Shown: one piece after another, positions 36,708-41,062 of the stretch
Numbering within the stretch: position 1 is the stretch's first letter
Layout of the letters: each line of letters starts with the position of its first letter
Assembly (NCBI GenBank): GCA_005502925.1
Contig: SCPD01000007.1
Location: forward strand, 186,001 to 250,000
Origin: Rhizobiales bacterium Y(2018)
GTDB taxonomy: Bacteria; Pseudomonadota; Alphaproteobacteria; Rhizobiales; Aestuariivirgaceae
Length of the DNA stretch: 64,000 bases
Direction of reading: 5' to 3'
Made by a program: the position numbers and the translations under genes
The notes under the pieces: generated by a model
What the model was told of the DNA's origin: nothing
What the model saw: the letters and a program-made list of their open reading frames with translations, nothing else
Database searches by the model: none

Positions 36708-38756
36708 TTACTGTTTGAGCGGCTCCAGGCCTTGCGCTGTCTTGGCGAGGCGGACGAGATTGACGAATTCGGCGCGATAGCCGAACTCGTCCTTGCCCTT
36801 GGCGCCCTGCGCCAGCGCGATCACGTCGTCATAGGAATAGGACTTCGTATATTGCGCGCCGCGCAACAGCTGACCGAAGGCCGAGACCGCTGTGGCGAAA
36901 CGCGACTCCTGCGGTGCCGCATCTAAAGTCGCCGAAGCGGCATCGATCTTCATCGGCTCGCTGATGAGCTTCGAATCTTTTTCGCCCGGCAGCTTGTAAC
37001 GGATCTTGACGAAGCCATATTCATCCGCACCTGCTTTCGCCGGCGTGTCGCTCTTCCCGTAACGCAGATCGTCATTGAGCTTCGCCTTCGAGTCCCGGGG
37101 CGTGATTTCGTAGATCGCGGTCACCGTATGCCCGGAGCCGATATCGCCGGCATCGACTTTGTCATTGTTAAAATCCTCGCGCTGGAGCATCCGCGTCTCA
37201 TAGCCGATGAGGCGGTATTCCGAGACCGTGTCGGGATTGAACTCGACCTGGATCTTGACGTCCTGGGCGATGGTGAACAATGTCGAGCTCACCTCGTCGA
37301 CCAGCACCTTGCGCGCCTCGTTGAGCGTGTCGATATAAGCGGCATTGCCGTTGCCGTTCTGGGCCAGCGTCTGCATCATCTCGTCATTGTAGTTGCCGCG
37401 CCCGAAGCCCAGCACCGACAGGGTCACCCCGCTCTCGCGCTTGCGCTCGACGAAGCTCTTGAGCTCTTGCGGGTCGGTGATGCCGACATTGAAGTCGCCG
37501 TCGGTAGCGAGGATGACGCGGTTGATGCCGGTCTTGTCGAAGCTCTGCTCGGCGAGCTGATAGGCCTGGCGGATGCCTTCGGCGCCGGCGGTCGAGCCGC
37601 CCGCCATCAGCCGGTCGAGCGCAGCGATGATCTTCGCCTTATCCTTGGCCTTGGTGGGTTCGAGCACGGTACCGGCGCTGCCGGCATAGGTGACGATCGA
37701 CACCGTGTCCTCAGGCCCCATCGTGTCGACCAGCAGCTTTAGCGAATTCTGTAAGAGCGGCAGCTTGTCGGGCGCATCCATCGAGCCCGACGTGTCGACG
37801 AGGAAGACCAGGTTGGCCTTGGGCTTCTCCTGGCCGTTGAGCGAAAAACCCTTGATGCCGATATGCATCAGCCTGGTGTCGGAATTCCACGGTGTCGGGA
37901 AGACCGAGACATTGGCCTTGAACGGCACCGTCCTGTCGGCAGGCCCCGCATAGTCATAAGGGAAATAGTTGATCATCTCCTCGACGCGCACCGCATCCTT
38001 CTGCGGCAGGACATTCCGGTTCAGCTCGCCGCGCACGAAGCTGTAGGAGGACGTATCGACATCGATCGAGAAGGTCGAGACCGGCTCGTCCTCGGCGATC
38101 TTCACCGGGTTGGTCTTGATGTCGGTGAACCTGTCGCGCCCCTGATCCTGGTAATAGATCTGGCGCTGATCGGCGGTCGTCGGCGCATAGGTCATGACGC
38201 TACCGGCCAAGCTCTCCGGTTCCGAATAGTCGGTGAAATTACCGCCCTTGGGAGCGATGACGTCTGCGACGCTTTCGGATTTCGACAAGTCCAAGCCAAG
38301 CGCGCCCGACGCCTCGGGCGCCGGCTTCGGAACGGCCTGCAACTGCTCGACGATCTCCCGGCGCGCCACCTGCGCATCCGCCCTCTGCCTAGGCTCCGCC
38401 ATCTTCTCCTTGCTGTCGATTTCCGTCGGCAAGGCGGGCTGATCCTCGATGAAAAATGTATTCTGCGGCGCGCGCAGCATGCCGCTATTGACCGCGATCA
38501 GCGTGATGACCGCGAGGCTCGCACCGGCCATCAGGCCGTGACTCAATCTCAATCCTTGCATCTTTGTGCTCCCAGAAAGGAAACCCCTCACCCGAGTCAT
38601 GAGACGGGGCTTGGCGCGGGTTCCTTGGGAGGCCTTGGAGAATATTTCGTCATAGGCGGCCATCGCCGCTTCGATGCCGGCCGCCTTCGCCGCCGGATCG
38701 GCCTTTGGCGCCTCACCGCGGAAGAGAGCTTTGAGAGGGTCGAAATCGTCGGTCAT
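36708..38756 (-). CDS. Membrane VWA-domain protein (YfbK type) with cytoplasmic N-terminal segment
   Basis: 682 residues. Residues 1-70 are hydrophilic and resemble the cytoplasmic tail of anti-sigma-like partners; one membrane segment (GLMAGASLAVITLIAVNSG) lies at 74-92. After a linker, STFSIDVDTSSYSFVRGELN and the YfbK N-terminal domain lead into a VWA domain with an intact MIDAS motif DTSGSM (321-326), and the C-terminal DUF3520-like part ends at LARLAKTAQGLEPL-type residues. It binds a partner through a divalent cation in the periplasm. Its ATG overlaps the sigma-factor stop by 4 bases, so it is translationally coupled to it and may act as its membrane sensor or anti-sigma (inference). 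Confidence 0.85.
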   Translation of the reverse strand: MTDDFDPLKALFRGEAPKADPAAKAAGIEAAMAAYDEIFSKASQGTRAKPRLMTRVRGFLSGSTKMQGLRLSHGLMAGASLAVITLIAVNSGMLRAPQNTFFIEDQPALPTEIDSKEKMAEPRQRADAQVARREIVEQLQAVPKPAPEASGALGLDLSKSESVADVIAPKGGNFTDYSEPESLAGSVMTYAPTTADQRQIYYQDQGRDRFTDIKTNPVKIAEDEPVSTFSIDVDTSSYSFVRGELNRNVLPQKDAVRVEEMINYFPYDYAGPADRTVPFKANVSVFPTPWNSDTRLMHIGIKGFSLNGQEKPKANLVFLVDTSGSMDAPDKLPLLQNSLKLLVDTMGPEDTVSIVTYAGSAGTVLEPTKAKDKAKIIAALDRLMAGGSTAGAEGIRQAYQLAEQSFDKTGINRVILATDGDFNVGITDPQELKSFVERKRESGVTLSVLGFGRGNYNDEMMQTLAQNGNGNAAYIDTLNEARKVLVDEVSSTLFTIAQDVKIQVEFNPDTVSEYRLIGYETRMLQREDFNNDKVDAGDIGSGHTVTAIYEITPRDSKAKLNDDLRYGKSDTPAKAGADEYGFVKIRYKLPGEKDSKLISEPMKIDAASATLDAAPQESRFATAVSAFGQLLRGAQYTKSYSYDDVIALAQGAKGKDEFGYRAEFVNLVRLAKTAQGLEPLKQ

Positions 38757-39286
38757 TCTTCCGTCCTCGCCAGCACCGCAAGGCGCTTGCGTATTTCATG
38801 CATCCGCCAGGATACGGTGGATTCCTTGACGCCCAGCACCTCCCCTGCTTCGGCGTGATTCATGTCTTCGGCCAGCACCAGCAGTGCCGTTTCCTTGAGA
38901 TCGGGCGACAGCCGGTCGATCGCCTGATAGAGCCATTGCAGCCGCCGGTCGCTGTCGGCCCAGTCGGCGCTGCGCTGGGCGTCGACCTCGACGAAGGCGG
39001 CTTCCATCCGCCCTGCCGTTTTGCGCCGCCGGATCAGGTCGCGGCAGTGATTGAGAGCGAGCTGATAGAGCCAGGTCGAGAACCGGCTCCGGCCGCCAAA
39101 ACTGCCGATCTTGCGCGCCAGCGCCATGGCCATCTCCTGGGCGGCATCCTCGGCCTCGGCCCGGCTGCCGAGCAACCGGTAGGCGACCCGGAACATGAGA
39201 TCGTAATGCCGCTCCAGCAGAAGCCGGAACGCGGCACGGTCGCCGTCCCGGGCCAGCCGGACGAGATCGAGGTCGCTCGCATCCAT
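38753..39286 (-). CDS. ECF-type RNA polymerase sigma factor
   Basis: 177 residues from the ATG at 39286; a TTG at 39337 would add 17 residues. Region 2 is LLERHYDLMFRVAYRLLGSRAEAEDAAQEMAMALARKIGSFGGRSRFSTWLYQLALNHCRDLIRRRK. Region 4 is LSPDLKETALLVLAEDMNHAEAGEVLGVKESTVSWRMHEIRKRL. Both are complete. It directs polymerase to a small regulon not identified here. It lies between an exported double-caspase gene and a transmembrane VWA gene on the same strand; the latter overlaps its stop, the usual position of an anti-sigma factor. Confidence 0.92.
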   Translation of the reverse strand: MDASDLDLVRLARDGDRAAFRLLLERHYDLMFRVAYRLLGSRAEAEDAAQEMAMALARKIGSFGGRSRFSTWLYQLALNHCRDLIRRRKTAGRMEAAFVEVDAQRSADWADSDRRLQWLYQAIDRLSPDLKETALLVLAEDMNHAEAGEVLGVKESTVSWRMHEIRKRLAVLARTEE

Positions 39287-39343
39287 GTGTCTGAAGCTTT
39301 GACGGCTGTCGATGGCCAAACCTTGGAGGACGCCCAAAATAAA

Positions 39344-41062
39344 TCAGGGCTTGAAGGCAGCGGTCAGTTCAGGCTCGATCCTGAAGACAATATCGCCGCT
39401 ATCCAGATCCGGGATGATGATCGTGTCGCTTTGCGGGGTCTGCGGCAGATCGGTGCCGAAAGAGAAGTCGACCACGTCTTTCTTGAGAAAGTCGCCGAGC
39501 TCTGCCCCGGTGACGAGGTTATCCTGATCGCCGATCTTGAAGTCACCGCGCAGCGCCCGGGTGAATTGCCGGGTGAAGCGACTCTCGGCCGGCACCTCTT
39601 CATTCTCGGATCCCGCAGTAATCACGCGGCGGACCGGCTGCATATGCAGGTGAATTTCCCACGGCCGCACCGCCGCATCGCCCTTCTTTTCCATCATGCG
39701 GAGCGCCACGCCGGAAAAGCAGCTGTCGAACACCCACAGCACATGCTTGGCTTCCATCAATTCGGACCATTCCGCGATCCGGCTCATATTGAGCGCGGTA
39801 TTGGCAAAAGGAATAGGGCTGTCCACGTGATGGGGGGCGTCTTTGGGAACGAACCATCCGACCTTTTTCTTCGTCAGCTTGTTCTCGATGGTTATCCCGT
39901 GGCCCGAGAGGAAGAAGAGCAAGCGGGCATTGGTTTTCGAACCGTGCTCATTGACGAAGGATTTGATCGCCGCTTCGAGCTGCTGTCCGGTCGGATTGGG
40001 CACGGTCGTCACCCGAAACCCATGGATGGCCTCGAGCGTCCGGCCCAGCTCGGCGATTTCACCGCGTACCGCCGGAAGGTCGCGCCAGGCCTTGAGGCTG
40101 TCCTCGTAATCACTGACGCCGATGAGCAGCGCATAGCTGCCGTCCTCATAGGTCGCCGCGAGCTCGCCGGGCTGGGTTTCATAGACGACTTCGGCGGCCC
40201 GCGTCATCGCATCCTTGCCCGGTTTGGCCGGAACAGGCGTCGCAGCTTTGAAATAAAACGGCTCGGTGAGCGCTGTCTGGACCCAGGGCTGCTGATAGCC
40301 ATTGGTCGCAGCCAGCACATCGTCGCGCACCAGCCGGGCGAACTCCATGAATTCAAGCCCCGGCATTGTCAGGTTCTCGGCCAGCGCCAGGGCAAACGGA
40401 CCATTGTTCCCTGCCCCATCGAGCGCCTGCCGGCCAGGGGAAGTCGCGAACATCACGGCCATGCGCGCGCTGACATCCATCGGCGCAAGGCCACGTTCGG
40501 TCTCGAGAATGGCAATTCCCCGCGTCGTCGCGGCGGCAGCGGCGAATGGGTTGTCATTGCATGCGTCGAAGAACAGGAGCGACGTCCCCGACCTGTTGGC
40601 GAGCCTCAGGCCGTCGATCAGGATAGCGAGACTGATCCCTTGAGCGGTCGCATCATCGGCGGTCTTGATGTTGCTGTCGCGCGGTATCATGAAGTTCACA
40701 CCGCCGACCTGAAGCCCCTGGCCGGCATAATAGACGACCACCACCGGGTCGGTCGCGGCGGCAACCCGCGCCATGAAGTCCCCAATCACACGGCGCAGGG
40801 CGGCGGCGGAGGGATCCGTCCGCGCCATCACGTCAAATCCGAGGTCCCGCAGGCTCGCCGAGATCAGATCGGCGTCATTGGCCGAATTCTTCAGCTTGGG
40901 GTGATGGTCGTAATCGGAAATGCCGAACACAAGCGCCAGACGCGGGCGTTCGGCGGCCGCCGGCTTTCCGGATAGACCGCCCAGCACCAGCAAAGCCGCA
41001 AAAAGGGCCAAACCGATCAATCTGGGAACAATGCTGGTCACTGTCGCCGTCACCGCCGTCAC
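39344..41062 (-). CDS. Exported protein with two caspase-like (peptidase C14) domains, one degenerate
   Basis: 572 residues from GTG at 41062; a second GTG at 41053 has GAAGGG at better spacing. A signal peptide (LIGLALFAALLVLGGLSGKPAAA) is followed by domain 1 (41-270): LALVFGISDYDHHPKLKNSANDADL, VVVYYAGQGLQ and FFDACNDNP. Here the catalytic His is replaced by Gln115 while Cys168 remains. Domain 2 (305-535): YALLIGVSDYED, LLFFLSGHGI with His388, VFDSCFSG with Cys448, both intact. This looks like a fused regulatory pseudo-domain and an active domain. The sigma-factor ATG follows 57 bases later. Periplasmic location is inferred. Confidence 0.85.
   Translation of the reverse strand: MTAVTATVTSIVPRLIGLALFAALLVLGGLSGKPAAAERPRLALVFGISDYDHHPKLKNSANDADLISASLRDLGFDVMARTDPSAAALRRVIGDFMARVAAATDPVVVVYYAGQGLQVGGVNFMIPRDSNIKTADDATAQGISLAILIDGLRLANRSGTSLLFFDACNDNPFAAAAATTRGIAILETERGLAPMDVSARMAVMFATSPGRQALDGAGNNGPFALALAENLTMPGLEFMEFARLVRDDVLAATNGYQQPWVQTALTEPFYFKAATPVPAKPGKDAMTRAAEVVYETQPGELAATYEDGSYALLIGVSDYEDSLKAWRDLPAVRGEIAELGRTLEAIHGFRVTTVPNPTGQQLEAAIKSFVNEHGSKTNARLLFFLSGHGITIENKLTKKKVGWFVPKDAPHHVDSPIPFANTALNMSRIAEWSELMEAKHVLWVFDSCFSGVALRMMEKKGDAAVRPWEIHLHMQPVRRVITAGSENEEVPAESRFTRQFTRALRGDFKIGDQDNLVTGAELGDFLKKDVVDFSFGTDLPQTPQSDTIIIPDLDSGDIVFRIEPELTAAFKP

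Follow-up and report, generated by a model that had tools for sequence, protein, structure and literature searches.

Pseudo-variants account for 18.9% of alphaproteobacterial orthocaspases (PMC6426788), and Asplund-Samuelsson et al. (2012, PMC3501461) put intact dyads in Alphaproteobacteria at 75%, with Tyr as the usual replacement of the catalytic His. In Rhizobiales, Klemencic et al. (2019, PMC6426788) describe Gln-Cys as a common pseudo-dyad, found almost exclusively in proteins with trypsin at the N-terminus. As described there, this kind almost always pairs the N-terminal trypsin domain with a C-terminal DUF4384, and the description mentions no second caspase domain. The same paper already raises c-FLIP for bacterial pseudo-orthocaspases; in its view, those of prokaryotes most probably do not regulate the true orthocaspases next to them.

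The window, the whole stretch of 64,000 nucleotides analysed here, carries a gene for an orthocaspase with two caspase domains on one chain. The first domain (D1) resembles the published Gln-Cys pseudo-orthocaspases in being a p20 domain from Hyphomicrobiales (Rhizobiales) with Gln for His and the Cys kept. The Gln-Cys pseudo-dyad itself is not new, as it has been published for Rhizobiales (PMC6426788). Unlike that group, the tandem protein has no trypsin domain and no DUF4384 in Pfam. Each of its domains is a PF00656 member, as are true orthocaspases, which have a His-Cys p20 without p10; in the loci examined, true orthocaspases have one caspase domain per protein, whereas the tandem protein has two. 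In searches of open-licence literature, none of the papers listed had tandem bacterial caspases as its topic by title or abstract start.

Gene layout and occurrence

The gene lies at 39344..41062 on the minus strand, as do all features below unless stated otherwise, and encodes 572 aa from a GTG start; its orthologue has ATG at that codon. Residues 1-37 (40952..41062) look by eye like a signal peptide, with a hydrophobic core followed by AAA before the domain, and the protein is probably secreted, most plausibly to the periplasm. D1 spans residues 38-272 (40247..40951), followed by a linker (residues 273-304, 40151..40246) and the second domain, D2 (residues 305-566, 39365..40150). Peptidase_C14 (PF00656) is found in two stretches of the protein (E 6.6e-47), and no other Pfam family appears at E up to 1. 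A D2-only fragment scores 50.7 bits against the Peptidase_C14 cut-off of 21.4. NF047832 (EACC1-associated caspase, NCBIfam) gives the tandem protein 86.9 bits, below its curated cut-off of 140, with D2 as the best stretch.

The first-pass annotation had described a first domain with Gln in place of the catalytic His beside an intact second one, and the coordinates bear this out. Gln115 is encoded by a clear CAG (40718..40720) in the context VYYAGQGLQVG, and Cys168 is retained, followed by Asn169 (40556..40561), in LFFDACNDNPF. D2 has both His388 (39899..39901, FFLSGHGITIE) and Cys448 (39719..39721, WVFDSCFSGVA). The case is somewhat stronger than first described, in that three positions of D1 are altered, the changes are kept in the orthologue, and the domains have two ancestries. 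On the plus strand, an antisense ORF of 725 aa (38798-40975) spans most of the caspase gene and is probably a side effect of GC-rich codon usage.

The sole orthologue found, from Taklimakanibacter lacteus (Aestuariivirgaceae, Hyphomicrobiales), is 72-73% identical over the full length. It reads YYAGQG and DACN in D1 and SGHG and DSCF in D2, with all four dyad residues kept, in what is one comparison with one orthologue. The earlier suspicion that homologues might have His at this place holds for less close relatives (30/30 compared rows, those lacking a His-Cys dyad having been set aside) and fails for the orthologue, which retains Gln115 together with Cys168. A recent point mutation or sequencing artefact at Gln115 was rejected, since the orthologue also has Gln.

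Both domains stand on one chain in two of five genus genomes and, among the loci examined, only in the window's own genome and a T. lacteus-like one. A full-length search matched 30/60 relatives at 1e-10, with single-domain matches in all but the own genome and G001. Scanning genome contigs with two peptide patterns of the orthologue pair gave T. lacteus as the sole match. Searches with D2 alone, the own genome being counted each time, matched 3/69 genomes of the family (E up to 1e-5), 13/397 in the order sample (1e-6), 8/385 in the class sample (1e-10) and 10/398 in the phylum sample (1e-15); scans of viral contigs for further D2 rows gave nothing new. The own genome (7.1 Mb), that of a soil alphaproteobacterium, has 12 caspase-domain matches in 11 proteins, whose open frames run from 485 to 1233 aa. 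Seven of the other ten have GHG and DACR, two distant ones have GHG with DACN or DACH, and one weak match stands outside this dyad count.

Ancestry and structure of the two domains

A tree of 67 rows was built with IQ-TREE, with bootstrap and SH-aLRT support, after eight pieces under 150 aa had been left out of the domain set and four fragments dropped from the resulting 71 domains. D1 falls among the common Hyphomicrobiales orthocaspases, its sister without resolution. D2 belongs to a separate 13-row clade (100/98), adjacent to L043 (100/99). The nearest rows outside the pair are the order's His/Cys orthocaspases for D1 and a rarer His/Cys subfamily for D2. A tree in which the two D1 and two D2 rows form a single clade is worse by 123 log units (p-AU 1.15e-10). 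This rejects tandem duplication as the origin of D1-D2, and the protein is therefore a fusion of two kinds of orthocaspase.

The dyad of D2, His388/Cys448, is intact. His and Cys are present in 12/12 aligned rows of the D2 subfamily, and a wider tally of 35 D2-type segments, two of them incomplete, gave His-Cys in 28, Gln without Cys in four (L075-L077 and L160) and His-Ser in one. Glu335 and Glu493 align at places like those of two D1 residues, Asp63 and Asp215, the place of Glu493 being non-acidic in L043. By its residues, D2 is predicted to be a working cysteine protease. Towards the C-terminal end of the domain, nine of ten distant D2 relatives show by eye a DxNxDG loop resembling an EF-hand; in the tandem protein and its orthologue the loop is two residues shorter and degenerate, the remnant lying at 39500..39535 (by eye, from an alignment of D2 relatives). 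Given this degenerate loop, calcium control of D2 may have been lost. One family member with a D2-like caspase, L041 (a minus-strand ORF of 542 aa), has the domain after an unnamed repeat of about 100 residues, seemingly in two copies (GDYIRRKQGDDD.. and GKFVTRDVTDDK..).

AlphaFold models were made from two alignments, A5 (18 rows, rich in D1 rows and taking in 16 of 24 D1 loci) and A6 (4 rows, with D2 rows). The 18-row model reached a pTM of 0.49, with D1 well predicted and D2 half predicted, and the 4-row model 0.40; long D2 stretches fall under pLDDT 50. D1 takes on a caspase fold in the modelling: of its first 23 ten-residue blocks, 19 have a pLDDT of 84-97. MALT1, caspases and CED-3 make up the 50 PDB matches listed, and a sequence search gave MALT1 only, in line with these. 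With these pTM values and a poorly predicted D2, the models neither show nor exclude a D1-D2 interface.

Across the 397 genomes sampled from the order, a census of the DNA pattern [YF]Y[AS]GQG returned 72 places, our own finding among them. All 72 were inspected via loci or stretches, some ending at contig ends. A D1-type profile, which could overlook distant relatives, recognised six of them as caspases; the short motif alone therefore means little. The six are the two orthologues, L075, L076, L077 and L160, and the Cys is kept only in the tandem protein and its orthologue. Its position is held by Val in L075, Ser in L076, Thr in L077 and Ser in L160, the motifs reading VFDTV, VFDTS, VFDAT and VIDSS. 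A trypsin domain is present in L075 and L076 (Pfam) and in L077 (by position), and DUF4384 scores under its cut-off in L075 and L076 (Pfam). L160 has DUF4384 and weak EF-hand matches and no trypsin match. L075-L077 thus share the architecture and the Gln of the published trypsin kind without its Cys, and none of the four fits the Gln-Cys description given in PMC6426788.

D1 is far from L075-L077 and L160 in the tree. Placing the six Gln rows in one clade was weakly rejected (p-AU 0.042), in a test made after a quick tree had been seen, with L075-L077 and L160 lacking the Cys and the true published Gln-Cys members outside the tree; Gln may therefore have arisen more than once. Descent of D1 from the published trypsin-bearing Gln-Cys group is not supported, the Gln-bearing trypsin proteins compared being Cys-less.

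State and role of the first domain

In all 30 His/Cys relatives of D1 type that were compared, His, Arg and Ser stand where D1 has Gln115, Asn169 and Gly221 (40400..40402), and these three D1 residues are common to both orthologues. Seven D1-type rows had been set aside before this count (L032, L033, L034, L036, L044, L065 and L180); L034 has Tyr and Ala as its dyad, L036 has His and Thr, and the residue after the Cys is Arg in L032 and Ser in L033, both His/Cys rows. A wider tally of 69 D1-type segments, five of them incomplete, gave His-Cys in 59, Gln-Cys in two (the tandem protein and its orthologue), and Tyr-Ala, His-Thr and Gly-Cys in one each. D1 thus counts as a pseudo-orthocaspase, a p20 domain with a replaced dyad residue that the orthologue shares. 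With Gln115/Cys168 in place of a His-Cys dyad, it is predicted to be proteolytically inactive. Asp63 and Asp215 are invariant in a 16-row D1 alignment and, placed via the metacaspase residues named in PMC6426788, would sit at the S1 pocket.

Between the orthologues, identity is 66.5% in D1 and 84% in D2, and dN/dS is 0.196 in D1 and 0.080 in D2 (own Nei-Gojobori script; dS is 1.1-1.2, near saturation). By this codon measure, the ratios show purifying selection on both domains, D1 therefore being held by selection less tightly than D2. Within D1, the Cys loop is identical at 14/16 positions and the Gln loop at 17/23. The C-terminal part of the domain (233-271) has an identity of 0.85 in the orthologue pair against 0.45-0.76 in 17 His/Cys pairs; relative to overall identity, the orthologue pair is second of 18, and this conservation is therefore no clear sign of an interface.

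We favour, as a reasoned preference held with about even confidence, the reading that D1 serves D2 as a pseudo-protease with a docking or regulatory role. Two orthocaspase domains of different origin are joined in one chain, which would be secreted and probably periplasmic and in which D2 would carry out cysteine-protease catalysis. D1 would formerly have been an ordinary His/Cys orthocaspase and would have become a pseudo-protease before the two carrier species split. It would have been kept as a domain still able to fold, with Cys168 and the pocket acids in place, and would serve D2 in cis, either by docking substrates or by holding and releasing the D2 active site. The c-FLIP picture may be one form of this reading. 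Weighing against the reading are the low pTM of both models, the single orthologue with dS near saturation, the gene's absence at this place from three of five genus members, and the doubts of PMC6426788 about regulatory roles for such proteins.

It is also possible, though unlikely in our view, that D2 took over catalysis after the fusion and that D1 is a relic, a folded spacer retained solely because losing it would destabilise the chain. The lower identity of D1, its roughly 2.5 times higher dN/dS and the loss of three residues that all 30 relatives compared have in common are consistent with such decay. However, its dN/dS still denotes strong constraint, the Cys and Gln loops are not worn away, and Cys168, Asp63 and Asp215 are retained. 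A considerably less probable account makes D1 altered and not dead, with Cys168 and Gln115 (and Asn169) forming an unusual hydrolase or transferase, or with D1 binding a modified or basic peptide. Both orthologues retain Cys168 and the pocket acids, Gln with a kept Cys is a published, common pseudo-dyad of Rhizobiales (PMC6426788), and the other Gln-bearing caspases found also lost the Cys, so keeping it is not automatic. Yet the relevant passages of the pseudo-orthocaspase literature gave no precedent for caspase-fold catalysis without His, and the Cys has lost its neighbouring Arg as well.

Neighbourhood and comparison with known systems

Downstream of the caspase gene lie a gene for an ECF sigma factor (38753..39282; alternatively from a TTG start at 39337) and one for a YfbK-type von Willebrand A protein (36708..38756), whose start overlaps the ECF stop by 4 bases. 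In both carriers the caspase gene is followed by those of the ECF sigma factor, the YfbK-type protein and a further protein, with purB divergent, and it stands directly upstream of and in line with the ECF and YfbK genes. The further protein is MBL-like by eye, and Pfam gives it a weak rubredoxin-like match only. By Pfam, purB and a sulfatase are the closest neighbours; the others are metabolic by eye. A defence island was considered and rejected, as PADLOC gives a generic 'caspase' match only and the ECF and YfbK proteins are without a match.

The caspase gene is dispensable, being missing at this place in three of five genus members, where purB adjoins the ECF gene. By YfbK (91%) and purB (98%), the nearest relative is caspase-less G003. 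Caspase-less G002 retains, at 92% identity, 48 bases of the flank 5' of the caspase gene, which fits loss of an ancestral caspase gene; transfer of the gene is possible as well. YfbK matches occur in 25/60 relatives, and an ECF gene stands beside YfbK in 9/10 stretches from other genera, where the pair is without a caspase. A promoter-like motif, CCAAG-N17-CGTCAAA, lies before the ECF gene and downstream of the caspase gene (39298..39326) and is kept in 5/5 genus members. With up to 3 mismatches allowed, its long form has just one match in the own genome; the short form, CCAAG-N15-18-CGTC, is unremarkable, with 4 matches in the window against 2.8 expected. The motif is probably an autoregulatory ECF promoter, with which the operon would not depend on the caspase gene; this weakens a functional link. 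The idea that the neighbouring sigma factor controls the caspase gene was rejected, no copy of the motif being found upstream of the caspase.

These genes raise the possibility, in our judgement a very slim one, that the caspase is part of an ECF-YfbK envelope-signalling operon and cleaves the periplasmic part of YfbK to free the sigma factor. The conserved position in both carriers would suit this, and a caspase-like protease that relieves a sigma-factor inhibitor is documented in Csx29-Csx30 (PMC10028731). In that Csx29-Csx30-CASP-sigma system, too, a caspase-like protease gene stands beside an ECF sigma factor gene; Csx29, however, is an RNA-activated TPR-CHAT protease of a type III-E CRISPR locus, whereas here the link is one of position only. 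Against the idea stand the ECF-YfbK pairs that lack a caspase in the genus and beyond, the ECF gene's own conserved motif with no copy before the caspase, and the YfbK protein, in which Pfam finds no anti-sigma domain and whose topology was read by eye. Still more doubtful is a combined scheme in which a periplasmic tandem caspase, its Gln-Cys domain gating the active one in cis, was added to an ECF-YfbK signalling operon of older date, and cleavage of membrane YfbK by the caspase sets off the sigma factor. We give scarcely any credence to a chance substitution without functional meaning in one lineage, a pseudo-domain among many paralogues: the eleven caspase proteins of the genome and the frequency of pseudo-variants noted above (PMC6426788) would allow it, but Gln, Asn and Gly are common to an orthologue that is only 66.5% identical in D1.

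The preferred reading, in which D1 docks substrates for D2 or regulates it, invites comparison with the long form of c-FLIP and caspase-8, where a pseudo-caspase unit is likewise paired with an active caspase unit, here the apparently intact D2. c-FLIP is a separate protein with death-effector domains and meets caspase-8 in trans in the cytosol. That pair is thus two proteins in trans, whereas the tandem orthocaspase is one secreted-looking chain in which Pfam finds Peptidase_C14 only and no death-effector domains. The likeness drawn in the first-pass annotation stands as far as a pseudo-domain and an apparently intact one share a chain; it is loose, since D1 and D2 do not stem from a duplication, and nothing we found shows D1 controlling D2. 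Pseudo-orthocaspases are common in Hyphomicrobiales (PMC6426788), and their natural fusion to an apparently active caspase offers a compact test case: one can ask whether a dead caspase steers a live one in bacteria, with halves that can be expressed together or apart. If D1 does steer D2, pseudo-caspase control arose outside animals too. Within the searches made, the tandem of a pseudo-domain and an apparently active one is a rare variant, at genus level, of the known pseudo-orthocaspase theme.
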